From contig NZ_PDCM01000002.1 in the NCBI RefSeq assembly GCF_008634025.1, positions 2,170,001 to 2,234,000 on the forward strand: 64,000 nucleotides of DNA, given 5' to 3'. Positions 7,935-43,477 of the stretch are shown piece after piece (the first letter of the stretch is position 1; every line of letters begins with the position of its first letter). The DNA comes from Streptomyces albofaciens JCM 4342 (GTDB taxonomy: Bacteria; Actinomycetota; Actinomycetes; Streptomycetales; Streptomycetaceae). A program made the translations under genes and the position numbers. Below the pieces are notes generated by a model that did no database searches, was not told where the DNA came from, and saw nothing but the letters and a program-made list of their open reading frames with translations.

Positions 7935-8091
7935 ATTTGCCAGGTGGCCAGCCTCTCGGTCGGCTCCTGGCAGCCCGGCAAGAGGCGGCGGCCCTCACGG
8001 ACGCCGGCCTCACGCCGGGAGATCGTGAGCAGGGAGTCTGGTCAGGCCGGGGCTGACCGCTACTCCAGCGAATAGGCCGGCGCATGGGACC

Positions 8092-8538: not shown

Positions 8539-8724
8539 TGGGGTAGAGCCCTCGCGTTGTCTCGGCGCCCGGGCCGCTCCCCATACGCATGGGGCGCGGA
8601 CCAAGCCGTCAACAGCCGCCCGAGCGGTGCTGCCGGGCGACCAACACCTAGACAACATCGTTCGGAGCCGCGCTGATTAGGGCGATGGGGCAGTCACCCG
8701 GAAGAACCGCCTAGGGCGATTTGA

Positions 8725-8740
8725 CCAGGCGATTACCTGG
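8725..8740. promoter_or_regulatory. Candidate operator between divergent regulators
   Basis: The inverted repeat CCAGG-N6-CCTGG lies 33 bp before the ATG at 8773. A TACCTT -10-like hexamer at about 8760 sits so close to that ATG that the HTH gene could be leaderless. This is by-eye evidence only. Confidence 0.25.
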
Positions 8741-8772
8741 GGCCTGACCGGTGAGGGCGCTACCTTGCCTGG

Positions 8773-25322: not shown

Positions 25323-26582
25323 TCAGGCCACCAGCTTCTCCAGGTCGGCGACGACCTGGCCGATGTCCGGCAGGGCGAGGCTGGCGAGCTGCGCCCGACG
25401 GCAGCGCGCGGCCGTCTCGCGGTCGGCCAGCAGCTCCCGGCACACGGCGGCCACGGCGTCCGGGTCGGTGTCGGTCAGGTGCCGGCCCAGGCCCAGTTCC
25501 TGCACGCGCGCGGCGTTGGGCAGCTGGTCGCCGAAGTTCGGCAGCACCGCCATGGGCGTGCCCGTGCGCACCGCTTCGCGGATGCTGTTGTAGCCGCCGT
25601 GGGTGACGAACAGGTCGGCGCATTCCAGCAGCAACGGCTGCGCGAGGCGGTCCGTCAGGTGGACGTGCGGCGCGGGCTCGACGCCGCCGGCCGGTTCGAC
25701 ACCGCCGGTCGCCACCACGGCCGTGCACTCCAGCCGGGACAGGCCCGCGATGATGGTCGCCAGGATCTCGGACGGGTCGGTCATGCCCACCGGCAGCGGC
25801 GTGCCCGCGGGCAGGATCTCGCGGAACATCGGCATCGCGGTGCCCACCGCGGCGAACACCAGCGGCCGGTCGGCGGGGAGTTCGGCGACCCAGCCGGGCA
25901 GCCCGGCGGTGCGGTCCACCACCGTGGTCTGGCGGTAGGCCAGCACGGTGGCCGGGAACCGCGCGAAGGAGTACTCGGCGGGCAGGTAGTCGAAGCGGCC
26001 GTGCGGGTAGAGCGACCCGGGCTCCTCCTGCACGGGCAGCCCCAGCTCCTCGCGCAGCCGGTTCAGCGCCGGCAGCGCCACGGCCGGGTCGAGGATGTTC
26101 ACGGTGCCCGCGGGGATGGGCAGCTGCGGGATGCCGAGCTGCTCGGCGAGCAGGCAGGCGCCCATGTCCATGCCGTCCCGGATGATGGCGTCCGGGCGGA
26201 ACTCCCGGGCCAGCTCGGACAGTACGCGGTGGTGTTCGCGGGCCATGTCGCCGGTGAGCCGTTCCATCAGGACGCGCATGTGCGGGTGCTCGGCGGGGTC
26301 GGCGTCCGGATCGGCGTCCGGTGTGGCACCGGTCTGTTCCACCGCGGCGGCGGCCGCCCGAGCGTCCGCGCCCTCGCCGTCCGCCTCCTGCTCTTCGGGC
26401 GTGGTGAAGTCGATGCGCGGCAGGCTGGGCTCGACCCGCACCGGGTCGGCGGCGAAGACGGGCGCCACGTCGGCCGTCGTGACGACGGTGACCTCGTGCC
26501 CGGCGCCGGCCAGCGCGCGGGCCAGCGGCAGCAGGGCTCGGCCGTGCGAGGGGGAGCCGGTGGCGGTGCACAGGACGCGCAT
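25323..26582 (-). CDS. UGT-like glycosyltransferase (GT-B, macrolide-transferase type)
   Basis: 419 aa. The ATG at 26582 has GAGGA seven bases upstream, preferred over the ATG at 26594 that overlaps that site. The N-terminus MRVLCTATGSPSHGRALLPLA and the C-terminal nucleotide-sugar site (LECADLFVTHGGYNSIREAV, then GTPMAVLPNFGDQLPNA) are typical of GT1 enzymes that glycosylate natural products or inactivate macrolides. An acidic linker (around residues 55-95) replaces part of the acceptor domain. It converges on the siderophore ATPase but has no iron box of its own. Acceptor unknown; siderophore glycosylation or self-resistance are both possible. Confidence 0.87.
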   Translation of the reverse strand: MRVLCTATGSPSHGRALLPLARALAGAGHEVTVVTTADVAPVFAADPVRVEPSLPRIDFTTPEEQEADGEGADARAAAAAVEQTGATPDADPDADPAEHPHMRVLMERLTGDMAREHHRVLSELAREFRPDAIIRDGMDMGACLLAEQLGIPQLPIPAGTVNILDPAVALPALNRLREELGLPVQEEPGSLYPHGRFDYLPAEYSFARFPATVLAYRQTTVVDRTAGLPGWVAELPADRPLVFAAVGTAMPMFREILPAGTPLPVGMTDPSEILATIIAGLSRLECTAVVATGGVEPAGGVEPAPHVHLTDRLAQPLLLECADLFVTHGGYNSIREAVRTGTPMAVLPNFGDQLPNAARVQELGLGRHLTDTDPDAVAAVCRELLADRETAARCRRAQLASLALPDIGQVVADLEKLVA

Positions 26583-26862
26583 GGTGTTCCTCATTTCTGG
26601 GCCGGGGGGAGGTCCGATCACCGTAGGGAGCCTCCGGAACACGTGTCAAAGAAGGGTGACGGCATTCGGCGACATTGAGTCATTCCCTGGGGAAAGGGCT
26701 GGTGAAAACGGGGAAGATGTGCGCAACGGCGCCCCGGAACCGAGGGGGCGCGCCCCGCTCACACGCACCGCCCCCCGCAAGATGCGATCAGCGGCGGGCC
26801 GCCACACGATGGGACCACGCAGGCGCCGCGGCGCACGGCCGGCAGGAAGGCGGACACCCGAC

Positions 26863-27630
26863 GTGGAGCACATCGAAGAGCACTCGGCGCCGTCCGGAAC
26901 CGGCGGAGCGGCCGGGGCCGCGTCCCCGGTCGAGGCCGCCCGCTCGTGCCTCACCCACTCCGCGGTCTGCCTGCTGTCCCCGGCCTCGGTACGGGAGCAG
27001 CTGGGCGCGGACGAGGAGGCCTGGGCCCGGTTCGCCGCGCACTGGGACGAGCTGGGCGAGGACCCGTACGCGGCCGAACGCGGCACCCGCAGGCTGCGCC
27101 GCTACGGCGGGTTCGCCCTCACCCCGGCCACCGGGGAGCTGGAGCGGCTGCCCCATGAGCCGTTCGTCCAGCCGAAGGACACCAACCCGCTGTACGAGGC
27201 GGTGGACCGGAACTTCGAGCCGCTGACCGACGCGTTCGTCGCCGATCCGCTGCTGCGCCCGCTGTTCGACCTGCTGGCGCAGGCGGCGGCCGCGCTGGAC
27301 GACGCCGGGCGGTGGATCGTCAAGGTGCACCCGTTCCGGGTGGTCGCGACCGCCGAGGACGAGGGGGACCCGACTCCGGAGGGGCGGCACAAGGACGGTG
27401 TGACCCTGGTGTCCTCACTGCTCGTCAGCCGGAGGAACGCGGTCGGCGGCCAGAGCTGCGTCTACACGGACGACGGGCGGGAACTGCTCTGCACCACCCT
27501 GCACCGGCCGGGCAGCCTGCTGCTGTCGGACGACCGGGACTCGCTGCACTGCGTCTCCCCCATCCGCCCGATGGACCGCTCGGAGCCCGCCTACCGCGAT
27601 GTGCTGGTGACCACGCTCACCGCCGCGTAG
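26863..27630 (+). CDS. 2OG-Fe dioxygenase family protein (IDO-like)
   Basis: 255 aa from a GTG at 26863; an ATG at 26809 is an alternative that adds an Arg-rich tail. The C-terminal half has the Fe(II) facial triad as H-x-D in GRHKDGVTLVSSLLV (near residue 172) and a distal His in SDDRDSLHCVSPIRPM (near residue 225), with a downstream Arg. This is the pattern of the amino-acid hydroxylase family that includes L-isoleucine dioxygenase. The substrate may be a free amino acid. It opens a short plus-strand group with the HemK-like and CDGSH genes. Confidence 0.8.
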   Translation: MEHIEEHSAPSGTGGAAGAASPVEAARSCLTHSAVCLLSPASVREQLGADEEAWARFAAHWDELGEDPYAAERGTRRLRRYGGFALTPATGELERLPHEPFVQPKDTNPLYEAVDRNFEPLTDAFVADPLLRPLFDLLAQAAAALDDAGRWIVKVHPFRVVATAEDEGDPTPEGRHKDGVTLVSSLLVSRRNAVGGQSCVYTDDGRELLCTTLHRPGSLLLSDDRDSLHCVSPIRPMDRSEPAYRDVLVTTLTAA

Positions 27631-27685
27631 CCGCGGCTTCGAACCGCCCCTGCAAGGAATGGTGTGACCGGGGTACCCGTGGCAG

Positions 27686-28348
27686 GTGTTCTTCATCAGA
27701 CCACCGGGCGTGTACGCGCCACAAGAAGACACCGGGATGCTGGCCGCGGCACTCCGGCGGGAGACCCTGCGGCCGGGCGCGGAAGTGCTGGACGTGGGGG
27801 CGGGCAGCGGGGCGCTGGCGGTCGCCGCGGCCCGTCAGGGTGCCGGGCGGGTCACCGCCGTGGACGCCGCGCTCGCCGCCGTGCTCACCACCCGGTTGAA
27901 CGCCTGGTTCGCCGGGCACCGGAGCACGGTGCGCGCGTACCGGGGCGACTTGCTGCGCCCGGTGGCCGGGCGCAGGTTCGACCTGATCATGGCGAATCCG
28001 CCGTACGTGCCCTGCGCCACGCCGGTGCCGCCGCGCGGCGGCCGGGCGCGGGCGTGGGACGCCGGGCCGGACGGCCGCGCCGTACTGGACCGGCTGTGCG
28101 CCCAGGCGCCCGCGCTGCTCGCCCCGGACGGCGTGCTGCTGCTGGTCCACTCGGGGCTCTGCGATCCGCTCCGGACCGTGGAGCAGCTGACCGGGGCCGG
28201 ACTCAAGGCCGCCGTCACCGACCGGCGGTCCATCCCTTTCGGGCCCGTGCTGCGGCAGCGCGCGCCCTGGCTGGAGGCCCAGGGGCTGACGGCCCCTGGC
28301 CAGGACAAGGAAGAGCTGGTGGTGATCCGTGCCCAGCGCCCCTCGTGA
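27686..28348 (+). CDS. HemK/PrmC-like class I SAM methyltransferase
   Basis: 220 aa from a GTG at 27686. SAM motif I reads VLDVGAGSGALAVAAA (residues about 34-49), and the amide-recognition motif is NPPYVP (about 109-114), as in N5-glutamine methyltransferases and the archaeal/eukaryotic HemK2-Mtq2 group. It is short and lacks the N-terminal helical domain of PrmC, so it is the small HemK2-like version. It overlaps the following CDGSH gene by 20 bases. Substrate unknown; a protein glutamine or a small metabolite is possible. Confidence 0.85.
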   Translation: MFFIRPPGVYAPQEDTGMLAAALRRETLRPGAEVLDVGAGSGALAVAAARQGAGRVTAVDAALAAVLTTRLNAWFAGHRSTVRAYRGDLLRPVAGRRFDLIMANPPYVPCATPVPPRGGRARAWDAGPDGRAVLDRLCAQAPALLAPDGVLLLVHSGLCDPLRTVEQLTGAGLKAAVTDRRSIPFGPVLRQRAPWLEAQGLTAPGQDKEELVVIRAQRPS

Positions 28349-28607
28349 ACAGCGGGAACCGGTACGCGAGCGTACGGACGGCGGGCGCGCGGACGCGCGC
28401 CGGGTCGTCCAGGACCCCGGGGGCCCGGTGCTCATCGAGGGCCCCGTCGAGGTGCAGCTCGACGACGGTACGACGGCCCGTTCGGACCGCCCCTTCGTGG
28501 CGCTGTGCATGTGCCGCCGCAGCCGGTCCTACCCCTGGTGCGACACCAGCCACCGCGGGCTCAGGCGGCCACCGGGTCCGCGCGCCCGGGCCGCCGGGGA
28601 CCCGTGA
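28329..28607 (+). CDS. CDGSH iron-sulfur domain protein
   Basis: 92 aa from a GTG at 28329, overlapping the methyltransferase gene. The metal site reads CMCRRSRSYPWCDTSH: three Cys and one His in the C-x-C-...-P-x-C-D-x-S-H order that binds a 2Fe-2S cluster. The Gly of CDGSH is replaced by Thr. The N-terminal 30 residues are charged and probably disordered. In Streptomyces such proteins often sit next to the haem-oxygenase-like iron enzyme found here on the opposite strand, suggesting electron transfer to it. Confidence 0.88.
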   Translation: MPSAPREQREPVRERTDGGRADARRVVQDPGGPVLIEGPVEVQLDDGTTARSDRPFVALCMCRRSRSYPWCDTSHRGLRRPPGPRARAAGDP

Positions 28608-28646
28608 GACGGCGGTCAGGGCAGCACAGCGGGGCGGCTCAGGGCG

Positions 28647-29624
28647 TCACAGCGGGGCGAACAGGGAGGACGTCCCGGCCGTCCACGCGCCGAGCAGGTG
28701 CTCGCCCAGCCGCTCCTCCAGCAGGTCGGTGGCGGCGATGCCGAAGGCGACGTCCGGCGCGAGGGCGGGCTCCTCGCGCAGCAGTCCCCGTACGACCTGG
28801 TGGCGCACCAGCTGTTCGTGCACGGCGTCGGCCTCGACGTGCTCGGCGTAGAAGTGCACGGCGGCCGGTCCGGCGTCCAGCCGTTCCAGCGCCTGCGCGA
28901 GGCGGCGCGAGCCGGGTGACGAGGTGACCTCCACCCAGGCGAAGTGGCCGACCAGGGCGCCCCGGTGTACGCGGTGCAGCCCGAAGAGCGACATCAGGTT
29001 GTTGACGGCGAGCATCTGCCGGGGGCAGACGCCGAGGTAGCGGCCGTAGGCGGGGTCCAGGCCGAGGTCGGTCAGGAGGTCGGCGAAGAGCCGGGCGTGC
29101 ACCCGCTCCGCGCGCCCCGCCCCGAACTCGTCGTACTCCACCGCCATCATCCCGGCCTTGGCCTGGCCCCACAGGCGCGGCACCACCCACAGGTGGGGGT
29201 CGGCCTCCTTGAGGTGGTACAGGGACCGCTGGGCCGCGTACTCGCGCAGGTGCCACAGTTCGCCCTCGTCGCGCAGGAAGTGCGAGACGCCGGTGCCGTC
29301 GGCCGGCTCCACCAGCAGGCCGTCGAGCAGTGCGGTCACCTCGCCCGGCCGCGGCAGGTCGGCGCGCAGCGCGTCGAGGAAGCCCTTCTCCAGGGACGCC
29401 CGGAAGCGCAGCAGTTCCGGGTCCCACTCCCAGGTGTCGGGCACGGCGTCGAGGCCGCGGTAGTGCAGTTCGTAGCAGAGGGCCAGGGCGAGGTGCAGGT
29501 CGTCGCCGTACGGGTCCGCCGCGGCCACCGTACGGGCGTCGGGCAGCCGTGCGGTGCCGGGCGGCCGTTCCAGCGCGGAGACGACCGCCGCCGACAGGTC
29601 TCCGCGTGCCGGGGGGCGTTGCAC
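28647..29624 (-). CDS. Iron-containing redox enzyme, haem-oxygenase-like fold (HDO family)
   Basis: 325 aa. The helical domain contains spaced Glu/His/Asp residues suited to a non-haem di-iron site (for example GMMAVEYDEFGAGRAERVHARL, FYAEHVEADAVHEQ), as in the haem-oxygenase-like di-iron oxidases that desaturate, cleave or N-oxygenate amino-acid-type substrates. It converges on the CDGSH gene with a 39-bp gap; the pair recurs in actinomycetes (recalled, not checked). Substrate is unknown. Confidence 0.85.
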   Translation of the reverse strand: MQRPPARGDLSAAVVSALERPPGTARLPDARTVAAADPYGDDLHLALALCYELHYRGLDAVPDTWEWDPELLRFRASLEKGFLDALRADLPRPGEVTALLDGLLVEPADGTGVSHFLRDEGELWHLREYAAQRSLYHLKEADPHLWVVPRLWGQAKAGMMAVEYDEFGAGRAERVHARLFADLLTDLGLDPAYGRYLGVCPRQMLAVNNLMSLFGLHRVHRGALVGHFAWVEVTSSPGSRRLAQALERLDAGPAAVHFYAEHVEADAVHEQLVRHQVVRGLLREEPALAPDVAFGIAATDLLEERLGEHLLGAWTAGTSSLFAPL

Positions 29625-31236: not shown

Positions 31237-31479
31237 ATGCGTATTCGTTCCGCCGTCATCACCGCGGTCGCCGCGGCCGGTGCCGCCGCCCTGGTCCCGC
31301 AGCCCGCCGTCGCCTCCACGGCGTCGAGCCCGGTGGTCTCCTCCCTCACCGACTCCAAGGCCGTGCAACTGCTGCGCATCCCGTTGAGCGAGCGCAACGT
31401 CGAACTGGCCCTGGACGCCGTCGAGACGGTCGCCCGGCCGCTCAACATGGAGAAGGGCGCCTCGTTCACCGGCCGGTGA
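31237..31479 (+). CDS. Small secreted peptide of unknown function
   Basis: 80 aa from an ATG at 31237. A clear Sec signal (residues 1-27, ending VASTASS) precedes about 53 mature residues that look amphipathic and helical (LSERNVELALDAVETVARPLN). There is no Cys. It lies 139 bp upstream of a 2OG-Fe(II) oxygenase gene on the same strand. I do not recognise a family. Confidence 0.6.
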   Translation: MRIRSAVITAVAAAGAAALVPQPAVASTASSPVVSSLTDSKAVQLLRIPLSERNVELALDAVETVARPLNMEKGASFTGR

Positions 31480-32366: not shown

Positions 32367-33431
32367 TCAGCGCCGTACGACCGACACCCGCGACACCCCG
32401 AGCAGGCCGGCCAGCGGCACCTCGGCGGACTTCTGCTCCGGGCTCACCGCCAGGCCCTGTTGCCGCACCAGGTCCAGCAGCCGTTCGGCCAGCGGCATGA
32501 CCATGTGCCGCCCCCAGCAGCGCTCGTTCGCGTGCCCGAAGGGCAGGTAGCCGGGCTGGTCGTCGGCGTCGAGGGCCGCCCAGCGCTCAGGGCGGAACTC
32601 GTCCGGCGCGTCCCATGTGCGCGGGTCGCGATGGCTGAGCAGCGGCAGCAGCAGGACGTCGTCGCCCGCGCCGATCCGCTCGTCGAGGGCGGCGAACTCC
32701 GGTGACGCCACGCGCAGCAGGTTCCACGACGGCGGCAGCAGCCGCATGGACTCGTACAGGATGTGGCGGTTCGGTATGTGGTCCTCGAAGGGCGAGCCGA
32801 GCCACAGCGCGTTGGCGACGAGGGTGGACACGGTGAAGCACACCGGTGCCGCCGCCCGCCGGTACAGGCCCATCGCGTACCGCCGGTCCCCGTAACCGGC
32901 CGCGGCGGCCGCGAGCCCCGCCAGCCGGGACACCGGCGCGCCGGCCCCCGGGCAGCCCGGCAGCGCCGCGCCCGCCGCGATCACCGTCCAGGTCAGTTTG
33001 GGCGTCCATTCCAGCTTGCGGTCCACGAGTACCCGCAGCCGCATCGGATCGGCCCCGAAAACCAGGTCCCGCAGATACAGGTGCGCCACCCGCGGCCATT
33101 CGCCCGACAAGTCGGCGGCCGGGCCGCCTTTCCCGTCGGGCGCGGCCGGCCTTTCCAGTGCCGCGCGCACGTCCAGGGAAACGGCGCGCATGACCGCGGA
33201 GGATTCGGGGCGGCTGATGGGCCGGCCCTGGAGGGGTTTGAAGGTGGGCCGTTCGGCCGCGTTGGCCGGTCTGCTGCGCAGCACGGCGTCGATCAGCCCG
33301 GCTCCGGCGACGCCGACCGTGTCGGCCTCCAGCCGGAAGACGTCCGCGCCGCGGTGCTCGCTGAGGAGCCGGCCGAGCCGCGGCGTGAAGACCGTGACCC
33401 GGTCGCTCCGTTCCGTACCGTACGTACGCAT
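32367..33431 (-). CDS. Atropopeptide cytochrome P450 (tryptorubin TrpB type)
   Basis: 354 aa from an ATG at 33431 with GGAGG seven bases upstream. The K-helix ExxR is ESMR (about residue 228), the meander has DEFRPERWAAL, and the haem loop is YLPFGHANERCWGRHMV with Cys as the iron ligand; it departs from FGxGxHxCxG. It is about 50 residues shorter than an ordinary P450, and no standard A/G-G-x-D/E-T-T I-helix motif is visible. The gene begins 49 bp after the 26-codon precursor ending AWYIWY. In known atropopeptide pathways one P450 makes all the C-C and C-N crosslinks among Trp and Tyr. That pairing, rather than the P450 alone, is the basis of the call. Confidence 0.9.
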   Translation of the reverse strand: MRTYGTERSDRVTVFTPRLGRLLSEHRGADVFRLEADTVGVAGAGLIDAVLRSRPANAAERPTFKPLQGRPISRPESSAVMRAVSLDVRAALERPAAPDGKGGPAADLSGEWPRVAHLYLRDLVFGADPMRLRVLVDRKLEWTPKLTWTVIAAGAALPGCPGAGAPVSRLAGLAAAAAGYGDRRYAMGLYRRAAAPVCFTVSTLVANALWLGSPFEDHIPNRHILYESMRLLPPSWNLLRVASPEFAALDERIGAGDDVLLLPLLSHRDPRTWDAPDEFRPERWAALDADDQPGYLPFGHANERCWGRHMVMPLAERLLDLVRQQGLAVSPEQKSAEVPLAGLLGVSRVSVVRR

Positions 33432-33480
33432 CGGCGGCCTCCGAGAGCCTGGATGAGGGAACTACCGGGTCACGTGCCGA

Positions 33481-33561
33481 TCAGTACCAGATGTACCAGG
33501 CGTAGGCCTTCAGGCTCTTCTCCGCCTTCATCTTCTTCTTGAGGGAGTTGATGAGCTTCAT
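33481..33561 (-). CDS. Atropopeptide precursor, core AWYIWY (tryptorubin type)
   Basis: 26 aa from an ATG at 33561, with GGAGG seven bases upstream. Residues 1-20 are a short Lys-rich, probably helical leader with no Cys (MKLINSLKKKMKAEKSLKAY), and residues 21-26 are A-W-Y-I-W-Y, directly followed by TGA. The last six residues equal the peptide sequence of tryptorubin A. The gene is far below usual size cut-offs and lies inside a longer frame whose upstream part has no coding character. It starts the operon with the P450. Leader removal would need a general protease, because no dedicated one is present. Confidence 0.92.
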   Translation of the reverse strand: MKLINSLKKKMKAEKSLKAYAWYIWY

Positions 33562-33954
33562 GACAGCACCTCCGGGACAGGCGAACCGACTGAACCGAAC
33601 ACTGACTCCGGCGGACCGGGACGCGGGAAAACACTGCTCCGCCACTGAATCCGGCTTTCCGCTTTTCGTCAGGGCAAAGTGAAGCCCAGCGGCGAAAGGT
33701 ACGTCAATGTGGTCAAGGTCACCGTAAATTCGGGGTATTGGGGGTTTCGTCGGCGAACGGGGGTGAAAGGCCGGGGCGTACGGAACGGGTGCCCGCGTGT
33801 GGGAAATCGCCGCCGCGACCGCCCCCGAAGGCGGATAACGCCACTTCACCGGCGGTGACTGTCACCTCCGGGTGCCGCCTTCCACGCTGATCCGCGACCG
33901 GCCCCGCGCTGTCCGCGCGGGGCCGAGGCGTCGACAACGGTGGAGGGATTTCCG
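33562..33954. promoter_or_regulatory. Divergent promoter region of precursor and MFS exporter
   Basis: 393 bp without a convincing gene. It is somewhat AT-richer in the middle (about 33620-33760), which suits promoters for both the minus-strand precursor and the plus-strand exporter. I do not identify a specific operator. Confidence 0.5.
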
Positions 33955-35397
33955 ATGACCGCTGAGCATGTGCTCGCGCCGCCCGGCACGGCCTGCCGAT
34001 GGCGGTGGTGGGCGCTCGCCGCCCTGCTGCTGGCCGAGGCGATGAACCTGCTGGACGCGACCATCGTGCAGGTCGCGGCGCCCGCCGTGCACGCCGACCT
34101 GGGCGGTCCGGTGTCCGACGTCCAGTGGTTCACGACGGCCTACACCCTGCCGTTCGCGGTGCTGCTGATCACCGGCGGGCGCCTGGGTGACATCGCCGGG
34201 CGGCGACGGGTGTTCGTCGTCGGCGTCACGGGCTTCCTGCTCGCGTCCGTCGCCTGCGCCCTGGCGCCCGGCGCCGGTCCGCTGATCGCCTTCCGGATGG
34301 TGCAGGGGGCCGCGGCGGCCCTGGTCATTCCGCAGACCATCGGCCTGATCAGAGCGATGTTCACCGGCGCGGAGCTGGCCCGCGCCCTGGGCTGCATCGG
34401 TCCGGTGATGGGGCTCGCCGCCGTCTGCGGGCCGGTGCTCGGCGGATTCCTCACCCACGCCGACCTGTTCGGCTCGTCCTGGCGGGCGGCGTTCCTGGTG
34501 AACGTCCCCCTGTCGCTGTTCGTCCTCGCGCTCGCGCCCAAGCTGACGGACGACCGCGCCCCGCGGCGCCCCGCCCTCGACCTGACCGGCACGCTGCTGG
34601 CCGCGGCGGGCGTCGGGCTCGTCGTCCATCCGCTGATCGGGGCCGACCTCGCCGCGCTGTCCGGCCGGCACTGGGCCTCCATCGCGGCCGGGCTGCTGCT
34701 GACGGCCGTCTTCGTACGGCACCAGCGGGGTGCCGGCGCCGCCGGGCGCAGCCCGCTGGTGGAGCCGAGCCTGTTCGGGCGCCGCGGCTTCCCGGCCGCG
34801 CTGGTGGCCTCGGCCTCGTTCTTCGCGATGACCAACGGCCTGCTGACGGTGATCGTGCTCCAGCTGCAACTGGGCCTGCGGGTCAGCGTGTTGGCGGCGG
34901 GCCTCACGCTCGCCCCGTGGTCGGCCGGTCTGGCCGTGGCGTCCTGGGCGTCCGGCGCCCGCCTCGTCCGGCGCTTCGGACACCGGACGATGCCGCTCGG
35001 GCTCGCCGTGCTCCTGGCCGGCACGCTGGCCGCCATCGCCGTGTACCGCACCGCGGATCCCGCGGCCTGTCCCGTCCTGCTGCTCCCGGCGCTCGCGGTC
35101 GTCGGCCTGGGGGCCGGCCTGTTCACGCCCGCGTTCTTCACCACCGCGCTCCAGCCGTTGCGCCCGCAGGAGATCGGCTCGGCCGCCGGGCTGCTGAACG
35201 CGGTCCAGCAGTTGGGCGCGACCCTCGGGGTGGCCGTCCTCGGCAGCGTCTACCTCCACGCCGCCGGGCCCGGCGGCGCCGCGGCCTCGCTGCACGCCGT
35301 GCAGCTCGCGTTCTGGGCCGCCACGGCGCTCGCGGTGGTCAGCCTGGTGGCGGCCAGGCTGATGACCGGCGGCCCGGAGGCGGGGACGGTCCGCTGA
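33955..35397 (+). CDS. MFS exporter, DHA2 type, divergent from the atropopeptide operon
   Basis: 480 aa from an ATG at 33955 with GGAGGG seven bases upstream. About 14 membrane segments; the DHA2 motifs are LLDATIVQVAAPAVHADL after TM1, GGRLGDIAGRRRVFV (motif A) and GLAAVCGPVLGGFL (motif C-like). Its divergent position next to the atropopeptide genes makes it the natural candidate for exporting the crosslinked hexapeptide or a related product. It could equally be an unrelated drug pump. No regulator gene (TetR/MarR) adjoins it. Confidence 0.88.
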   Translation: MTAEHVLAPPGTACRWRWWALAALLLAEAMNLLDATIVQVAAPAVHADLGGPVSDVQWFTTAYTLPFAVLLITGGRLGDIAGRRRVFVVGVTGFLLASVACALAPGAGPLIAFRMVQGAAAALVIPQTIGLIRAMFTGAELARALGCIGPVMGLAAVCGPVLGGFLTHADLFGSSWRAAFLVNVPLSLFVLALAPKLTDDRAPRRPALDLTGTLLAAAGVGLVVHPLIGADLAALSGRHWASIAAGLLLTAVFVRHQRGAGAAGRSPLVEPSLFGRRGFPAALVASASFFAMTNGLLTVIVLQLQLGLRVSVLAAGLTLAPWSAGLAVASWASGARLVRRFGHRTMPLGLAVLLAGTLAAIAVYRTADPAACPVLLLPALAVVGLGAGLFTPAFFTTALQPLRPQEIGSAAGLLNAVQQLGATLGVAVLGSVYLHAAGPGGAAASLHAVQLAFWAATALAVVSLVAARLMTGGPEAGTVR

Positions 35398-35602
35398 TCC
35401 GGCCCGTACGCGGCCCTGGCCCGACCGGTACGCGTGAACCTTGCGCCGCAGGCGGCTGATCCACGTACGGAACGGCGTTTCCCGGGACGTATCGGCTCGT
35501 TGGGCGTGGACGAGCCTTGTCCGGCACACCGGCGTCCGCCGGACCGTGGGAAGGCTCTCGCGTCCGGGGCGCTGGGCTCCGGCGCCGGAGAGAGGACAAC
35601 CT

Positions 35603-35842
35603 GTGCGAAAGATGAGCTACGCCCTGGCCGCGGCCGTCGCGCTGAGCGGCGTGCTGTTCACGGGGGCGGCCACCGAGGCCGCCGCCGCCACCGCCCGCCC
35701 GCAGGCGCAGCCGAGCGGCCCGCCGTTCCCGTACGCCGACTGCATCAGGGAAGTGAAGAGGCAGTACAAGGGCAAGAAGGACCCGAAGGCCACCTGCGAC
35801 GCGCTGGTGCGCAAGGGCTACATCAAGAAGCCGGGCACCTGA
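35603..35842 (+). CDS. Small secreted basic peptide
   Basis: 79 aa from a GTG at 35603 with AGAGGA six bases upstream. A Sec signal peptide (residues 1-30, SYALAAAVALSGVLFTGAA then EAAAA) precedes a basic mature part with two Cys (YADCIREVKRQYKGKKD, then TCDALVRKGYIKKPGT) that could form a disulfide. No known family is recognised. It is 205 bp downstream of the exporter on the same strand. Confidence 0.65.
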   Translation: MRKMSYALAAAVALSGVLFTGAATEAAAATARPQAQPSGPPFPYADCIREVKRQYKGKKDPKATCDALVRKGYIKKPGT

Positions 35843-36264
35843 TCCGGCCGCTCCTCCCTCCGGGCCCCGTGCCCCGGGCTCCGCGCCCGGGCCGCGGGGC
35901 CCGGCCCCGTACGGGTCCGGTCCGTGCGCCCGCGCGTACGTCTGTCAGACGGTGGCGCGCGCCACCCGACGACGAACGCCGCGCACGCCCCTTGTGCGCC
36001 GGTGGCGGCCGGGGCAAGCTTCGTTGATGGTAAAAGCAACCCGGTTCCGAAACGGCCGCAGCTCGCGAGGATAAGGGACAGTATCCGGGCGGCCCGTTGC
36101 ATGACGCTGACGCGGACCGGGAACGCGGGAACGACTCCTCCTTCCGTCGATTCCCTTGTGGACGCATTGTCATAAGCGTCCTGCCCTATTGGTACTGGCC
36201 GACCGGCCGGCGAGGAAAGCGCGCAGTACGGCGAGATCCGGTGCGGGGTAGGGAGAGGGGTTCC
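35843..36264. other. Intergenic region upstream of the prenyltransferase
   Basis: 422 bp with several short frames that lack codon bias or ribosome sites. It turns AT-richer after about 36000 and probably holds the promoter of the prenyltransferase operon. I see no specific site. Confidence 0.4.
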
Positions 36265-37371
36265 ATGTCGGCTCTGGGAACGGTTCCACCGGTGTGCGGT
36301 GGCGTGACACTCATGGATTATGGAGTTTCCACCCTCAGGCGCCTGCTCGCCAGTGCGGGTCTGAATGTCGAACAGGGCGCGAGGGTGCTGCGCAGGATGC
36401 TGTCACCGTGGGGAGAGCGGCGTATAGGAACGCGTCCCGACTGGCGTTCCGATGTCTGCGCCGACGGTTCGCCGATCGAATTCTCCGCCGCCTTCTCGCG
36501 GGAACGCACCCAGATACGGGTGCTCGTGGAAGCCGTACCGGACCGGCTGGACACCTCGGCCGCGCAGGAATCGGCGCTCGGCCTCACCCATGTGCTGACC
36601 CGGGAGTTCGGCGCCGTCGACGACCGTCTGGCCGAAGTCCGGGACCTGTTCCTGCCGGACGAGGGACCGGCCGGTTTCGCCATGATGCACGCCGCCGTCT
36701 TCTCGCCGCACGGCGACCCCGAGTTCAAGGTCTATCTGAACCCCGACGCCGACCGGCGCATGACCGCCGTCGAGCGGACGCGCCGGGCTCTGGACCGCCT
36801 GGGATTCGGCAAGGCGTGGAATGCGATCGGCGAATACGCCCGCCGGGGATTCGACCTCGACCGGATCGTCTATCTGGGTCTCGACCTGATGGACGGCCCC
36901 CAGGCGCGGGTGAAGGTGTACTTCCGCCACTACGACGTCTCCCCGGCGGAACTCGACGCCCGTATGCGCATATCGCTCCAGCACGAGGCCGGATTCCTGG
37001 AGGATTTCTGCTACGCGCTGACCGGCAACGCCGGTGCGGCACGGCCCCAGCCGCTCGTCAGCAACCTGACCTTCACGGCGGTCGGCGAGCACATACCCGA
37101 ATCCGCCACGCTGTACGTCCCGCTGTGGGTGCACGCGGAGAGCGACCGCACCGTACGGGACCGGGTCAGCTCCGTCATGGCCCGCATGGGCCTTCCCGCC
37201 GGCCGTTACCGGACGCTGCTGAGCCAGGTGGCCCGGCGCCCGCTGGCGGGCGGCCGCGGCATCCACACCTACGCGTCGGCGCGGATGCAGAACGGCCGCC
37301 CGCGCATGACCACCTACTGGTCCTCGGAACTGTACGACCGGTATCCGCCCGCCCGTTACCAGCGGGGGTGA
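36265..37371 (+). CDS. DMATS-type aromatic (indole) prenyltransferase
   Basis: 368 aa from an ATG at 36265 after GGGAGAGGGG. It has the bacterial indole prenyltransferase (ABBA barrel, DMATS family) look: an N-terminal helical part, GLTHVLTREFG, FKVYLNPDA (diphosphate-binding Lys on a strand), RVKVYFRHYDVS (second Lys strand) and the C-terminal repeat TYASARMQNGRPRMTTYWSSELY. The family transfers dimethylallyl diphosphate without Mg-binding DDxxD motifs, most often to tryptophan. It is followed after 5 bp by a PLP enzyme gene, so prenyl-Trp processing is the likely pathway. The position of prenylation cannot be read from the sequence. Confidence 0.9.
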   Translation: MSALGTVPPVCGGVTLMDYGVSTLRRLLASAGLNVEQGARVLRRMLSPWGERRIGTRPDWRSDVCADGSPIEFSAAFSRERTQIRVLVEAVPDRLDTSAAQESALGLTHVLTREFGAVDDRLAEVRDLFLPDEGPAGFAMMHAAVFSPHGDPEFKVYLNPDADRRMTAVERTRRALDRLGFGKAWNAIGEYARRGFDLDRIVYLGLDLMDGPQARVKVYFRHYDVSPAELDARMRISLQHEAGFLEDFCYALTGNAGAARPQPLVSNLTFTAVGEHIPESATLYVPLWVHAESDRTVRDRVSSVMARMGLPAGRYRTLLSQVARRPLAGGRGIHTYASARMQNGRPRMTTYWSSELYDRYPPARYQRG

Positions 37372-37376
37372 CCGCC

Positions 37377-38612
37377 ATGCCGCGGCACGAGGCGCTCCGC
37401 TCGCTGTTCGACGACGCGCGGGTCCGGCCCGACCTGCTGCGTCGGCGATCGCCCGTCCGGTGGGGCGCGGTCCCGCCCGACGTCATTCCGCTGACGGCGG
37501 CCGAACCGGATTTCCCCGGGCCCCGGGCGGTCAGGGACGCGGTCGTCGCGGCGGTCGCCGACGGCTATTTCCCCTACGCGACACCCAACGGACCGGAAGA
37601 ACTCCTGGAGGCCTTCTCGGAAGTCGCCGAAGCCCGTCACGGAATCGGCAACCACCCCGATCGCGTGGTGCTCGCGCCCGGCACGGCGGCCGCCTTGTGG
37701 GGTGTGGTGCGCCTGCTGTGCGGAAAGGGCGACGAGTGCATCCTGCTGGACCCGGTGGACCTGCTGTTCGGCCAGGCCGTCGACGCCGTGGGGGCCCGGC
37801 GCGTCTACTGCCCGGTGGACAAGCGCACCGGGCGACTGGACACGGACCAGCTCGCCTCCTTGGTGACGGCGCGCACCGCGCTGATCTGCCTGTGCAATCC
37901 GCACAACCCGCTGGGCACGGTCTTCACCGAGCCGACGCTGCGGGCGGTGGAGGACATAGCCGCCGCCCACCGTGTCCCGATACTTTCCGACGAGGTGTGG
38001 GGCGACATCGTGTACCCGCCCAGGACGCACATCAGCATGGCGAGCCTGGACACCGGAAACAGCCGGCGCGTCTACACGGTGACCGGGCTTTCCAAGACGT
38101 TCGCGCTCCCGGGGCTGCGCATGGGCTTCGTGGTCGCCCCGACCCCCGCGGATGCGGACGCCTTGCGGCTCGCCTTCCAGCATCTCGGCGCCGCGTACAG
38201 CATGACGCCCTGTACCCAGGCCGGCGCCCTGGCCGCCCTGCGCCACGGCTGGCCCTGGCGGGACGCGTTCCTGGAACACCTGCAGGCCATGCGCGACTAC
38301 TGTGCGGACCGGCTGAACGCGATACCGGGATTCTCCTGCGGCCGGCCGGACGGAACGTACGTCCTCTTCCCCGATGTGTCCGCCCTCGGGCTGAGCAGCC
38401 GGGCGATGGGCGAATTCCTGCTGGCGAAAGCGCGGGTGGCCGTGGTGCCCGGTACGGCCGAGTGGTTCGGCCCGGCCGCCGAGGGCAATATCCGCATCAG
38501 CTACGCCACTTCGCGGGCCGTGCTGGAAGAGGCGCTGAACCGTATGGCGAGCGCCGTCGGAGAACTCGTCCCCGGTGGCCCGGCCGCGCTCCAGGCCACC
38601 GGCACGCCGTGA
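37377..38612 (+). CDS. PLP-dependent fold-type I enzyme (class I/II aminotransferase, MalY/PatB-like)
   Basis: 411 aa from an ATG at 37377, five bases after the prenyltransferase stop. The PLP lysine is in TVTGLSKTFALPGLRMGF, the cofactor Asp in LSDEVWGDIVYP, and the Asn in CNPHNPLGTVF. The NPHNP and SDE patterns resemble MalY/PatB C-S lyases as much as true aminotransferases, so transamination, beta-elimination or decarboxylation are all open. Coupled to a DMATS gene, its probable substrate is a prenylated tryptophan. It converges on the CYP157 gene. Confidence 0.88.
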   Translation: MPRHEALRSLFDDARVRPDLLRRRSPVRWGAVPPDVIPLTAAEPDFPGPRAVRDAVVAAVADGYFPYATPNGPEELLEAFSEVAEARHGIGNHPDRVVLAPGTAAALWGVVRLLCGKGDECILLDPVDLLFGQAVDAVGARRVYCPVDKRTGRLDTDQLASLVTARTALICLCNPHNPLGTVFTEPTLRAVEDIAAAHRVPILSDEVWGDIVYPPRTHISMASLDTGNSRRVYTVTGLSKTFALPGLRMGFVVAPTPADADALRLAFQHLGAAYSMTPCTQAGALAALRHGWPWRDAFLEHLQAMRDYCADRLNAIPGFSCGRPDGTYVLFPDVSALGLSSRAMGEFLLAKARVAVVPGTAEWFGPAAEGNIRISYATSRAVLEEALNRMASAVGELVPGGPAALQATGTP

Positions 38613-38645
38613 CGGGCCGTGCGGCCTGCCGGCCGGGTCCGGGCG

Positions 38646-40112
38646 TCAGCCGCGCAGCCAGGCCTTCAGCGCGGCCCACCAGGACGTACGCCTCGGGAGT
38701 ACGGGGGCCGCGGGAGGCGGGCCGGGCGGGGACGGGGCCGGTGGCTCGGCCGCGGGCAGGGAGCCGTCGTCCGGGACGTCCCACAGCGGGCGCTCGGCGG
38801 CCGGACCGGCGGGCGCGCCGGAGCGCGCGGGCCGCGAGGGGCTGAACGTCACCGGGAGGCTGGTCAGGTGGCGCGTCATCCAGCCCGACTTCCAGCGCAG
38901 GTCCTCCTCGGGGATGCGCAGCCGCACGTCGGGCAGCCGGGCCATCAGCGTGTCGATGCCGGTGTCGGCGATGGCCCGGCCGATGTTCTGGCCGGGGCAC
39001 TCCTGCGGGCCGCTGCTGAAGGCGAGGTGCGAGCGGTTGCCGAGCAGCGGAATCGAGGGGTCCGGGCGGACGGCCGGATCATTGTTCCCGGCGGCCAGGC
39101 TGAGCAGCAGCATGTCCCCCGCCTCGACCTTCTGGCCGCCGACCTCCGTGTCCACGGCGGCCCAGCGGCCGGGAATGGTCATCAGGGGCGGTTCGTTCCA
39201 CAGCACCTGCTCCACCACGTCGGGCAGCGTCATCTGCCCGCCGGCCAGCGAGGCGTGGCACCGGGGATCGGTCAGCACCATCCGCAGGGTGCTCTTGAGG
39301 AGGTTGACCGTGGTCTCGTTCGCGGCGATCAGGACGACCCGCAGGTGGTTCCACACCTCCTCGTCGGTCAGCCGGGAGGAGTGGTCGATCAGCCAGGACG
39401 TGATGTCGTGGCCCCGGGTCGTGTGCTTGCGCCGTACCAGCTCCGTGAGGGTCTCCACGATGAACGCGTTGCTGGCCACCGAGGTCGCGGTGCCCGCCAC
39501 CATGTCCCGGCTGGCCGTGACCAGCCGGGGCCCGTACTCGTCGGGCATGCCCAGGAGCTGCGTCAGCACGAGCATGGGCAGATGCTCGCAGAACTCCTCG
39601 GCCAGGTCCGCCTCACCGCGCTCGGCGAAGCCGTCGACCAGCTGGTGGGTGAAGCGGGTGATGTGCCGCCGGATGCCCCGGCGGTTGAAGCGGTCCAGGC
39701 TGTCGGTGACCGCCACGCGCAGCCGGTTGCGCTCCTCCCCGTCCAGGAACAGGCAGACCGGCTGCCAGGCGATCATCGGGAGCAGCGGTGAGTCCGGCGG
39801 CACCCGCCCTTCCCGGAACCAGCGCCAGTTGCGCGAGTCGCGGCTGAAGCGGGCGGGCGTACCGGCGACCTCCAGGATCTCGCGGTAGCCGAGGACGAGC
39901 CAGGCGGGCAGGTCGCCGTCCAGCAGGACGGGTGCGACGGCCCCGTGCCGGGCGCGCAGCCGCTCGTACAGGCCCATGGGGTCCTCGGCCGCCTCGGGGC
40001 CGAAGAGCCGCGCCAGTCCGTCGGCGGCGCCGAACCGGGCGTGTGCCGGGCACTCCCGGGGCGGCGTGGCGGCCCATGTGGTGCCGGGCTGTTCGGGGAA
40101 GGGCATGGTCAC
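38646..40112 (-). CDS. CYP157-like cytochrome P450 of the conservon (CvnE type)
   Basis: 488 aa. The GTG at 40112 overlaps the CvnD stop (GTGA), six bases upstream of an alternative ATG. The haem loop is LAFSSGPQECPGQNIGR with the ligand Cys. In the K-helix the normally invariant ExxR is replaced by EQVLW (VVEQVLWNEPPL), the known hallmark of CYP157, which occurs as the fifth gene of conservons. The I-helix reads VVLIAANETTVN with the usual acid-Thr pair. A Pro-rich tail of about 65 residues follows the P450 fold and ends in a Trp-rich amphipathic piece (SWWAALKAWLRG). The substrate is unknown. Confidence 0.9.
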   Translation of the reverse strand: MTMPFPEQPGTTWAATPPRECPAHARFGAADGLARLFGPEAAEDPMGLYERLRARHGAVAPVLLDGDLPAWLVLGYREILEVAGTPARFSRDSRNWRWFREGRVPPDSPLLPMIAWQPVCLFLDGEERNRLRVAVTDSLDRFNRRGIRRHITRFTHQLVDGFAERGEADLAEEFCEHLPMLVLTQLLGMPDEYGPRLVTASRDMVAGTATSVASNAFIVETLTELVRRKHTTRGHDITSWLIDHSSRLTDEEVWNHLRVVLIAANETTVNLLKSTLRMVLTDPRCHASLAGGQMTLPDVVEQVLWNEPPLMTIPGRWAAVDTEVGGQKVEAGDMLLLSLAAGNNDPAVRPDPSIPLLGNRSHLAFSSGPQECPGQNIGRAIADTGIDTLMARLPDVRLRIPEEDLRWKSGWMTRHLTSLPVTFSPSRPARSGAPAGPAAERPLWDVPDDGSLPAAEPPAPSPPGPPPAAPVLPRRTSWWAALKAWLRG

Positions 40113-40732
40113 CGTGGCTCCGCAGTCGTGGTGGTGAGGGTGTGCAGATAGCGCATGAGGGTCAGCAGACCGTCGCGGCTGGAGCCGCGTTCGCGGGCGT
40201 CGCAGTCGATCACCGGCACCTGGTCGGGGATGTCCAGAGCCTGCCGGAGCTCGGAGACCGGGTACGAGGGGGCGTCCGGGAAGGCGTTGATGGCGACGAT
40301 GAAGGGCACCCCGCGCTCCTCCAGGCGGCCCATCACGTCGAAACTGTCCTCCAGCCGCCGGGTGTCGATGAGGACGACGGCGCCCAGCGCGCCTTCGAAG
40401 AGGCCGTTCCACAGGAACCAGAACCGCTGCTGGCCCGGGGTGCCGAAGACGTACAGCACCAGTTCGTCGTTGAGGGTGATCCGGCCGAAGTCCATCGCCA
40501 CGGTGGTCTCGCTCTTGCGCTCCACCCCGGCGAGATCGTCCACGCCGGCCCCGGCCTGCGTCATGATCTCCTCGGTGGTGAGCGGTCTGATCTCGCTGAC
40601 CGAGCCGACCAGGGTGGTCTTGCCGACGCCGAAACCGCCGACGATCACCACCTTCACCGCCGTGGTGACCGAGGCCGGCAGGATGTCCTCGCCCCGCGGG
40701 CCGACGACGGGTTCAGAGATTCTGTAGTCCAT
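40109..40732 (-). CDS. cvnD: Conservon GTPase-like ATP/GTP-binding protein (CvnD)
   Basis: 207 aa. G1/Walker A is GGFGVGKTT (about residues 32-40), G3 FGTPGQQRF, and an NAF-type G4 stretch (VAINAFPDAPSYP), as in the Ras-like MglA-related proteins of conservons. It starts 20 bases inside the CvnC gene and its stop overlaps the P450 start. With CvnA-C it forms a membrane-associated complex that acts like a eukaryotic G-protein-coupled switch in Streptomyces morphology and antibiotic control. Confidence 0.93.
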   Translation of the reverse strand: MDYRISEPVVGPRGEDILPASVTTAVKVVIVGGFGVGKTTLVGSVSEIRPLTTEEIMTQAGAGVDDLAGVERKSETTVAMDFGRITLNDELVLYVFGTPGQQRFWFLWNGLFEGALGAVVLIDTRRLEDSFDVMGRLEERGVPFIVAINAFPDAPSYPVSELRQALDIPDQVPVIDCDARERGSSRDGLLTLMRYLHTLTTTTAEPR

Positions 40733-41084
40733 GCATCACCGCCTCCAAGAGTTCGATGTCGGGCAGCGACTTGGCCGGGACCGAGGCCCGGGCCTCGACG
40801 TGGTTGCTCGCCAGCAGCTCCGTGAGCAGTACGGTGACCACGCTGACCGGCAGGTGGAGGTACGCGGAGAGCTCGGCGACGGACAGCGGGTAGTCGCAGA
40901 TGCGGACGATGGCGGCGAGCTCCGGCTGCATGCCCGGACCGGCCTCGCCGCGGCTCACGATCAGCGTGACCATGTCGAGGGGGGCCTGCCGTTCGGCCGG
41001 TTGCCGGCCGGACGTCAGGACGTAGAGCCGTTCGGGACCGCCCTCTTCCCAGGCCTGTTTCTTCTGCCGCTCCGGCTCACTCAT
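40713..41084 (-). CDS. cvnC: Conservon protein with DUF742 domain (CvnC)
   Basis: 123 aa. The ATG at 41084 overlaps the CvnB stop (ATGA). The sequence has the DUF742 winged-helix-like signature: RLYVLTSGRQPAE, then YPLSVAELSAYLHLPVSVVTVLLTELLASNHV and SLPDIELLEAVMHGL. It is part of the conservon complex and links the roadblock protein and the GTPase; the precise mechanism is not known. Confidence 0.93.
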   Translation of the reverse strand: MSEPERQKKQAWEEGGPERLYVLTSGRQPAERQAPLDMVTLIVSRGEAGPGMQPELAAIVRICDYPLSVAELSAYLHLPVSVVTVLLTELLASNHVEARASVPAKSLPDIELLEAVMHGLQNL

Positions 41085-41503
41085 GGGACCTGCCGGTCGG
41101 ACCTCGGCGGACTGGACAGGTGCTGGCCGATCCGGGCGACCAGGTCCCGCATCCGCTGCCCCATGAGGCCGGCGTCCACGTCGTCGTCGGCCAGCACCGC
41201 GAGGTACGCACCGGCGCCGGCCGCCATCAGGTAGAAGAAGCCGCCGTCGACCTCGACGACGACGAGTTTCATCCGGCCGTCGCGGTGCGGGAACTCGGCG
41301 GCGATGGCCGCCGACAGGCTCTGCAGCCCGGCGCAGGCGGCGGCGAGGCGGTCGGCGGTGTCGGTGTCCGTACCGCACTGCGCCATGCACAGGCCGTCCG
41401 AGGACAGCACCACGACGTTGCGGGTCTGCGGGACGCTGGACGCCAACTCCTCCAGCATCCAGTCCATGTTGAGCCGCTGCTTTGTGGCCACTTGCTCACT
41501 CAT
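41081..41503 (-). CDS. cvnB: Conservon roadblock/LC7 protein (CvnB)
   Basis: 140 aa from an ATG at 41503. The roadblock/LC7 fold is recognisable from LNMDWMLEELASSVPQTRN, VVVLSSDGLCMAQCG and FFYLMAAGAGAYLAVLAD. Such proteins regulate the partner small GTPase (CvnD). It follows CvnA by 18 bp. Confidence 0.94.
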   Translation of the reverse strand: MSEQVATKQRLNMDWMLEELASSVPQTRNVVVLSSDGLCMAQCGTDTDTADRLAAACAGLQSLSAAIAAEFPHRDGRMKLVVVEVDGGFFYLMAAGAGAYLAVLADDDVDAGLMGQRMRDLVARIGQHLSSPPRSDRQVP

Positions 41504-41521
41504 CCTTATCTGCTGGCTCGG

Positions 41522-43009
41522 TCACTGCTCGGGCTCCGGGGCGCCCGGGCCCTCGGGACCGCGCGCCGGGGGCTCGTCCGGCGACGCGCCGGAGGGGCCG
41601 TCGAGGAAGGCGGACAACCACATCCCGGCCGGCGGGGCCGGACGCCGGGGCTCGGTGGCGGAGGGGGCCGCCGGCCGCGGGCCCGCGGGCGGGAACACCG
41701 GACGGGTGGTGCGCCGCCTGCGCTGCGGGAGTCCGTTGGCGGTGCGCGGGGCGTCGGCGGACGACTCCTCGGCGGCCGCCGTGGCCCGGTGCTTGGGGCC
41801 GCTGGGGTAGCGGGGCGGCGGCAGGCTGGGCGCCTTGGCGATGGCGCCGCCGGGCGCCGGGGTCACGGTGATCAGTTCGGGCGGTACGACCAGGACGACG
41901 CGCACGCCGCCGTACGCGGACACCCGCAGCGACACGGTGAAGTGGTTGGTGTGGGACAGCCGGCCGACCACCGCCAGGCCGAGCCGGGGCGACTCCCCCA
42001 GGTCGTCCAGGTCCAGGCCGCTGGTGGCGTGCTGGGCCAGGGACCGCTCGGCGCGGACCCGGGCCTCGTCGGTCAGGCCGAGCCCGGCGTCCTCGATCTC
42101 GACGGCCACCCCGGTCTGGACCTCGGTCGCGGTCAGGTGGACGCGGGTCTGCGGCGGTGAGTAGCGCGTGGCGTTGTCCAGGAGCTCGGCCACGGCGTGG
42201 ATCAGCGGTTCGGCGGCGCGGCCGAGAATGCCGACGTCGGCCACCGAGTGGAGATCGACGCGCTGGTAGTCGGTGATCCGGGACATGGCCCCGCGCAACA
42301 CGTTGAACAGCGGGATGTCCTTCTGCCACTGCCGGCCCGGCCGGGCGCCGCCGAGGACGGCGATGCTGTCCGCCAGCCGGCCGATCAGCGCGGTCCGGTG
42401 GTCCAGGTGCAGCAGGTCATGGAAGACGTCCGGGTCGTTGCCGTGCTTGTCCTCCAGTTCGCGCAGTTCCAGGGCCTGTTGGTGCACGATGGCCTGCACG
42501 CGCCGGGCGATGTTGACGAAGGCCCGCCGGGCGGAGTCGCGCAGGTCCTCCTCGGCGTCGACCGTCAGGAGGATGTAGCGCACCACCGCGTCGTGCGCGG
42601 CCTCGAACCGGGGGCTCACCCGGGACACCGGGCCGATGGTGCGCAGCACGTCCTCGATCGACGTGCCCTGCCGGAGCCGGGCCAGGGCCGCGGGCAGGGT
42701 CTCCTTGGCCAGCCGGATCGTCTCGGTCTCCTGCTCGGCCAGCTGCCGTTGCAGGAAGGCCTCGCGTTCGGCGTACTGCCTGCGCAGGGCGTCGATCGCA
42801 CGGCCCCGGCGGGCCGCCTCGGCGGCCGCGACGGCCACGGCGGCGGTCGCCAGGACGCCGATCCAGGCGGCGTGGGCACGGGCCGCCGACGGCAGCAACG
42901 ACGCGGCCACGGCCGTACATATGGCCAGAAACGCGGGTGGCAGCAGCCACGGTGCGGTGGCGGCCGGCCCCGGCCTCCCGGGTGGCGAATCAGCACGAGC
43001 CATCGGCAT
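41522..43009 (-). CDS. cvnA: Conservon sensor histidine-kinase-like ATPase (CvnA)
   Basis: 495 aa from an ATG at 43009. Two N-terminal membrane segments (residues about 20-65) with a very short loop are followed by a coiled coil (about 65-100), a helical dimerisation-like domain (DLLHLDHRTALIGRLADSI near 215-235), and an HATPase domain: N box HAVAELLDNATRYSPP, G1 EIEDAGLGL, G2-like SPRLGLAVVGRLS. The C-terminal 120 residues are Pro/Ala-rich and disordered. There is no response regulator; output goes to the CvnB-D proteins. It is the first gene of the conservon operon. Confidence 0.92.
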   Translation of the reverse strand: MPMARADSPPGRPGPAATAPWLLPPAFLAICTAVAASLLPSAARAHAAWIGVLATAAVAVAAAEAARRGRAIDALRRQYAEREAFLQRQLAEQETETIRLAKETLPAALARLRQGTSIEDVLRTIGPVSRVSPRFEAAHDAVVRYILLTVDAEEDLRDSARRAFVNIARRVQAIVHQQALELRELEDKHGNDPDVFHDLLHLDHRTALIGRLADSIAVLGGARPGRQWQKDIPLFNVLRGAMSRITDYQRVDLHSVADVGILGRAAEPLIHAVAELLDNATRYSPPQTRVHLTATEVQTGVAVEIEDAGLGLTDEARVRAERSLAQHATSGLDLDDLGESPRLGLAVVGRLSHTNHFTVSLRVSAYGGVRVVLVVPPELITVTPAPGGAIAKAPSLPPPRYPSGPKHRATAAAEESSADAPRTANGLPQRRRRTTRPVFPPAGPRPAAPSATEPRRPAPPAGMWLSAFLDGPSGASPDEPPARGPEGPGAPEPEQ

Positions 43010-43477
43010 CCTCAGAGCGCTAATGGAAGGGACAGGGCGTCATACGCGGCGTTCACGGTGTCGAAAGGCAGCGGGAAGACATGAGGCGGCGTTCCGCGCG
43101 CGGAGCCGGGTCCCAGGACGCCCGTGCCCTCGTGCGGCGGCGGCTTCACGGCAGCCGTCAGCGGTCTGCCGCAGCCGTCACAACTCGCTGCGCGGCAGTG
43201 AGCATAGTGCGGGCGGAATGGCTCTGCGGGCCATGTGCACGCACCACATGAATGTACTCACGTACGAAATTCAGAAGAATCGTTTGGCGCTGGCCATTCG
43301 CCGACACCGCGGCAAGCGGGAGCCGCTGACCTGCGCGGACAGGAATTCGGCGGTTTTCCGGGGCGTTACGCGACGGGCCGGGCACAGGGAAGTGTCCGCA
43401 CGCCGGGGAAAACGTGCGGACACCCGCTTTTCGGGGCCGGGCCGGTGGATGTCACCACCGGGCGGCCGCCGCCCGCC
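43010..43477. other. Intergenic region upstream of the conservon
   Basis: 468 bp between CvnA and the DUF2637-like gene, both on the minus strand. A 75-codon minus-strand frame (43158-43385) is present but has no good ribosome site or family resemblance. The stretch 43200-43290 is AT-richer and is the likely conservon promoter. Confidence 0.4.

Follow-up and report, generated by a model that had tools for sequence, protein, structure and literature searches.

A probable two-gene tryptorubin-type atropopeptide cluster in Streptomyces albofaciens JCM 4342

A 26-residue precursor gene and a single cytochrome P450 gene stand next to each other in the window, as we call the whole 64-kb stretch of DNA analysed, and we consider with a probability of about 0.94 that they form a minimal two-gene atropopeptide cluster (a tryptorubin-type RiPP; Table 1). 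The initial annotation had proposed an atropopeptide locus with the tryptorubin core and one P450, and this proposal is supported by the match of the precursor to the NCBIfam model NF038372, by the family placement of the P450 and by the published definition of the class. The locus is a genuine example of the atropopeptide (tryptorubin) family, which is already known from hundreds of genomes, and it presumably adds a member to this family rather than a new class or kind of system. More than 650 atropopeptide clusters have been predicted by AtropoFinder (PMC11450843; this paper, PMC12352619 and PMC13417212 are each drawn on here for part of their text). The view that such precursors lie below gene-calling limits and are easily missed holds in part; it is partly out of date because NCBI has a curated precursor model, and the number of AtropoFinder clusters also speaks against it. 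As a well-supported tryptorubin-core locus, the pair offers a way to ask if P450s that have diverged still make one compound from one core.

Table 1. Positions of the features of the window, and loci of the sister P450 group
Feature	Position	Strand	Evidence
Precursor peptide gene, 26 aa, MKLINSLKKKMKAEKSLKAYAWYIWY	33481..33561	minus	Direct reading; NCBIfam NF038372 match; homologues in the same place at P450 loci
KSLK leader motif codons, residues 15-18	33508..33519	minus	Direct reading; motif as in PMC11450843 (part of text)
Core AWYIWY codons, residues 21-26	33484..33501	minus	Direct reading
Ribosome-binding site GGAGG, 7 nt before ATG	33569..33573	minus	Direct reading
Atropopeptide cytochrome P450, 354 aa	32367..33431	minus	Pfam p450 1.1e-12; tree; residue conservation; structure model
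Divergent MFS efflux gene (DHA2/EmrB-like)	33940/33955-35397	plus	Pfam MFS_1 4.6e-42; TIGR00711 163.8 bits, under cut-off 230.2
Convergent 2OG-Fe(II)-oxygenase-like gene, 218 aa	31619..32275	plus	Conserved residues; weak structure model
Sister loci L148, L149, L150, L151	Genomes G240, G302, G357, G165 respectively		

Direct reading of the DNA bore out the 26-codon, Lys-rich precursor ending AWYIWY at the position and on the strand first given for it, the strong ribosome site before it (GGAGG, 7 nt from the ATG) and the P450 ATG 49 bp after it. The leader contains KSLK, and the peptide matched NF038372 (tryptorubin family RiPP precursor) over positions 1-26 of 26, with 55.8 bits against a cut-off of 33. 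The window has 449 ends of short ORFs (15-45 codons, on both strands, the precursor being counted with two nested starts and one stop), and of these the precursor alone has the W..W. ending, and 20 simulated windows (first-order Markov) contained six W..W. ends in total, none of them with KSLK. We take the tryptorubin core to be AWYIWY, which is consistent with the WYIWY published for LauA and tryptorubin B. With regard to the features described in PMC11450843, the precursor has the KSLK leader motif at residues 15-18, which the paper places at 17-20 in an alignment whose positions 7-8 are rarely filled, and Trp stands at core position 2 (A-W-Y-I-W-Y). With Trp as the second and the fifth core residue and with the KSLK leader, the peptide belongs to the bitryptides, the xWxxWx subfamily of the same paper.

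S. rimosus NRRL WC-3904 carries a direct orthologue of the locus (L038), and so does Streptomyces sp. CB02923 (L039). The precursor DNA of S. rimosus is identical to that of the window (precursor identity 100%), and that of CB02923 (92%) has three synonymous and three non-synonymous changes, the latter in two leader residues; a further locus, L153 in genome G157, differs by three synonymous and five non-synonymous changes and has the same core. GGAGG stands at equal spacing from the ATG in all three. Since the precursor DNA is unchanged in S. rimosus while the P450 there carries 51 substitutions (36.8 synonymous and 14.2 non-synonymous), the precursor peptide is, as judged from these sequences, under constraint. 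The P450 is 97% identical to that of S. rimosus and 86% to that of CB02923, and its dN/dS values (about 0.14 for L038, 0.18 for L039 and 0.25 for L153) indicate that it is under purifying selection.

In the P450, E227, R230 and C305 are among the residues invariant across 35 aligned P450s; we take E227-R230 to be the ExxR motif and C305 to be the haem-ligand cysteine. Ordinary P450s have an acid-alcohol pair in the I-helix, and helix 179-212 of this protein, presumably its I-helix, reads AAAPVCFTVST at that place. The structure model has a mean pLDDT of 85, and its PDB matches were P450s with query TM-scores of 0.44-0.61 (among the 50 matches listed). A PDB sequence search gave 161 matches, and the 60 of them listed, with 9ulw (376 aa) as the best, were P450s of other pathways or entries named plainly 'Cytochrome P450'.

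A scan of contigs found 85 related P450s, from which 80 loci were retained (71 of them at least 14 kb long), and a search of 392 Streptomyces genomes (genus judged from named matches) gave a P450 match at E<=1e-40 in 48 of them, two of which (G240 and G302) hold only the sister-type P450 described below and one (G377) only a partial match. The 80 contig loci were combined with the best 30 genome loci of 51 matches, the window being one of these 30, into a set of 110 loci with 100 distinct P450s, some strains being present twice; five genome loci beyond the best 30 were also fetched. The results showed that a precursor ORF lies directly upstream of the P450 at 109 of the 110 loci (window included), with the leader motif KSLK at 90, PSLK at nine, KPLK at three, KNLK and QSLK at two each, and ESLK, RSFK and TSLK at one each. 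The variants at L012, L041, L058, L094, L103 and L105 were found by a looser scan made after the fact, and the leaders of these six loci (KNLK, QSLK, RSFK and TSLK) lie outside the six motifs listed in the text of PMC11450843. The looser motif scan also gave no upstream precursor at L109, where the P450 match is partial (residues 164-351), and none was found at L152 (G377), another partial match (residues 234-354). Over the loci, the distance from the precursor stop to the P450 match has a median of 124 bp, the gap in the window being among the shortest, and the core is AWYIWY at 27 of the 100 distinct P450s, that of the window included.

In a phylogenetic tree made by a quick search with SH-aLRT support only, and with a distant outgroup that calls for caution about long branches, the P450 of the window was placed among 98 P450s, each linked to a precursor, and six ordinary same-genome P450s stood apart. 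It grouped with L009 and L010, the homologues of S. rimosus and CB02923 (SH-aLRT 100), within a branch of eight rows whose cores are all AWYIWY (SH-aLRT 91). The initial annotation would have given way if the P450 had grouped outside the atropopeptide clade, and the tree, which does not itself include TryB, favours the clade. This tree, built without TryB (WP_007820080.1), ScaB and P450Blt, and the linkage at 109 of 110 loci together identify the enzyme as the class-defining P450. At L093 (Streptomyces sp. SPB074, core AWYIWY) the P450 is 61% identical to that of the window; this strain is presumably a producer, and a literature search for tryptorubin together with SPB074 found no paper. The same tree contains a P450 of Streptomyces sp. 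MMG1121 (L115), 68% identical to that of the window, and AtropoFinder had flagged a cluster in this strain (PMC11450843). L109 (partial) and L069 (in-frame stop in the match) were left out of the tree as too short. L069, from Xanthomonas cucurbitae (8001-9008), has its in-frame stop in the P450 match and a precursor open through SWYIWY, and is perhaps a decayed locus.

Because of the identity of the core, the product would most likely be tryptorubin A or B, and it is quite probable that the P450 of the window lays the same bonds as TryB. In the proposed mechanism, the ribosome would make the 26-residue precursor, whose basic leader with KSLK would dock on the P450, so that the tail of six residues is threaded into the haem pocket. 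There the enzyme would couple the two Trp and the first Tyr of AWYIWY oxidatively through C-C and C-N bonds, at a net cost of about 4 H, the value for three bonds being taken from varsorubin B1. Removal of the leader by host peptidases would then give tryptorubin A or, where the Ala is also lost, tryptorubin B. The genes, the constraint and the family membership come from this analysis, and docking, crosslinking and cleavage are transferred by homology from the published family, in which docking is itself a model (PMC11450843, PMC12352619). According to the same two papers, the leader recruits the P450, which forms every bridge of tryptorubin A, and freeing of the hexapeptide, or of the pentapeptide less Ala, is presumed to be the work of host peptidases; a two-gene cluster with one P450 gives all three crosslinks of tryptorubin A (PMC12352619).

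The identity of the core leaves the product and its crosslinks unfixed, because SvaB lays two bond patterns on a single core (the varsorubins) and, with WYIWY as its core, ScaB yields no more than a monocycle (PMC11450843, PMC12352619). It is unlikely that the atropopeptide P450 here crosslinks the AWYIWY core in another pattern, giving a monocycle or a tryptorubin isomer. The branch of the window stands apart from the other AWYIWY groups, with 61% identity to L093, and published P450s lay differing bond patterns on like cores, which would suit such an enzyme; yet the jum and amyxirubin P450s, 59% identical, give one and the same compound, amyxirubin B (PMC11450843), and the core and leader motif of the window are the standard ones. 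In the passages of PMC11450843 and PMC12352619 drawn on here, we found no product reported for this P450 branch.

The two-gene cluster proposed for tryptorubin A or B resembles the try cluster of these compounds, which likewise has two genes, a KSLK leader, the tryptorubin core and one class-defining P450 (PMC11450843, PMC12352619). The lau cluster of laurentirubin B likewise combines a WYIWY core with one atropopeptide P450; in it a second P450 adds an ether bond, and lauA with lauB1 alone gives tryptorubin B (PMC11450843, PMC12352619). Biarylitides are likewise small RiPPs crosslinked by a P450, marked by Tyr-His tripeptides and by a five-residue precursor that takes 18 bp to encode (PMC13417212, PMC12352619), whereas the precursor of the window has 26 residues with KSLK and is not of the five-residue kind. 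Unlike in lau, the nearest other P450 match among the scanned neighbouring ORFs of the window is 5 kb off, at 38646-40412, beside histidine-kinase-like and GTPase-like genes. A histidine-kinase-like ATPase, a small ORF, a GTPase-like gene and this weak P450 match stand in a row at 38646-43009 on the minus strand, an arrangement that we take to resemble a Streptomyces conservon.

The initial annotation had also suggested that the MFS and 2OG genes may extend the pathway; both genes exist nearby, and the extension is without support outside one small clade. An extended cluster, in which the 2OG-oxygenase would act as a hydroxylase of the crosslinked peptide and the MFS protein as its exporter, is improbable. 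The two genes flank the precursor/P450 pair in S. rimosus too, the 2OG gene of CB02923 is 92% identical to that of the window, above the value for the P450, and the 2OG protein has HxD...H residues (D95, H195 and R206 invariant, H93 in 16 of 17 aligned proteins) and a 2OG-type fold in a weak model (mean pLDDT 63) that matches prolyl hydroxylases; a Pfam search with it gave no match. Against these points, 42 of the 392 genomes contain a 2OG homologue (E<=1e-10), and linkage with the P450 is seen in three of them (G000, G047 and G336), all of one clade, and the gene was found at two of the 80 P450 loci; its adjacency may be plain synteny, because the flank past it is colinear with CB02923 as well. 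MFS matches were found at ten of the 80 loci, namely a full orthologue at L038, an 81-codon remnant at L039, seven of 31-35% identity and one of 25% at L099. The 2OG gene is probably a neighbour and not a member of the cluster. The MFS gene is a possible exporter of the cluster product, its membership of the cluster being without support; an exporter role in some strains may be considered possible because L060 has an MFS gene of 35% identity slightly more than 1 kb from its P450 and on the other strand. For the S. rimosus clade, either another P450 bond pattern on AWYIWY or 2OG hydroxylation of the crosslinked peptide, with a product other than tryptorubin A or B, may be put forward tentatively as a less likely reading. 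A chance ORF beside an unrelated P450 has its small size and nothing more in its favour, and this reading, of practically negligible probability, is refuted because the precursor/P450 pair is conserved, with the NF038372 match, the simulated windows and the linkage at 109 of 110 loci also against it.

The locus of CB02923 differs from that of the window in being without most of the MFS gene and about 9 kb past it: the match jumps from window position 34183 to 43473, and the roughly 9.3 kb between them correspond to roughly 0.4 kb. The part without counterpart holds most of the MFS gene, a prenyltransferase and an aminotransferase gene, and the precursor and P450 are intact. The 81-codon MFS remnant suggests that the difference arose by loss in CB02923. 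The MFS, 2OG, prenyltransferase and aminotransferase genes are best seen as neighbours. The prenyltransferase is of the DMATS aromatic type (36097-37371, plus strand; Trp_DMAT 3e-17) and is followed by a gene with a class I/II aminotransferase domain, the pair spanning 36097-38612 on the plus strand; they possibly form a small prenyl-aromatic pathway. As a tailoring gene the DMATS prenyltransferase was rejected, being present at one of the 80 P450 loci, that of S. rimosus. Just before the 2OG gene, at 31237-31479 on the plus strand, lies a secreted-looking 80-aa ORF with a signal-like N-terminus. This ORF was rejected as a partner of the 2OG gene: it occurs only in the window and two clade relatives (L118-L120), and ahead of the 2OG gene at the 27 further loci checked (L121-L147) the search gave only weak partial matches, with E 0.039 or worse. 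At 26095-29624 a 2OG-Fe_Oxy_2 domain protein, a small methyltransferase and a haem-oxygenase-like iron enzyme are clustered. The ORFs g27664, g28944, g29554, g31110, g35434, g37460, g38619 and g39932 were excluded as genes, being probable shadow frames.

A sister P450, 38-41% identical to that of the window, was found in four of the 392 genomes (Table 1), and this group, with its W-x-x-H precursor, may merit more attention than the locus of the window. A literature search found no paper on a precursor group of the HAWVLHVI type, and the one precursor of this type that was compared with NF038372 gave no match. The sister precursor has 27 aa, ends in DEDLA[NS]HAWVLHVI without KSLK, and starts 238-416 bp before the P450 match. 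Relatives of the sister P450 at E<=1e-100 number at least 84, many of them from Kitasatospora. In all four loci the P450 is followed by a third gene, an ORF of 335-377 aa beginning MESPTLA, and its protein has a JmjC_2 domain (Pfam) in L148 and L150, the two that were run. On sequence grounds, L148-L151 are possibly a separate family of P450 RiPPs whose core is W-x-x-H and which includes a hydroxylase.
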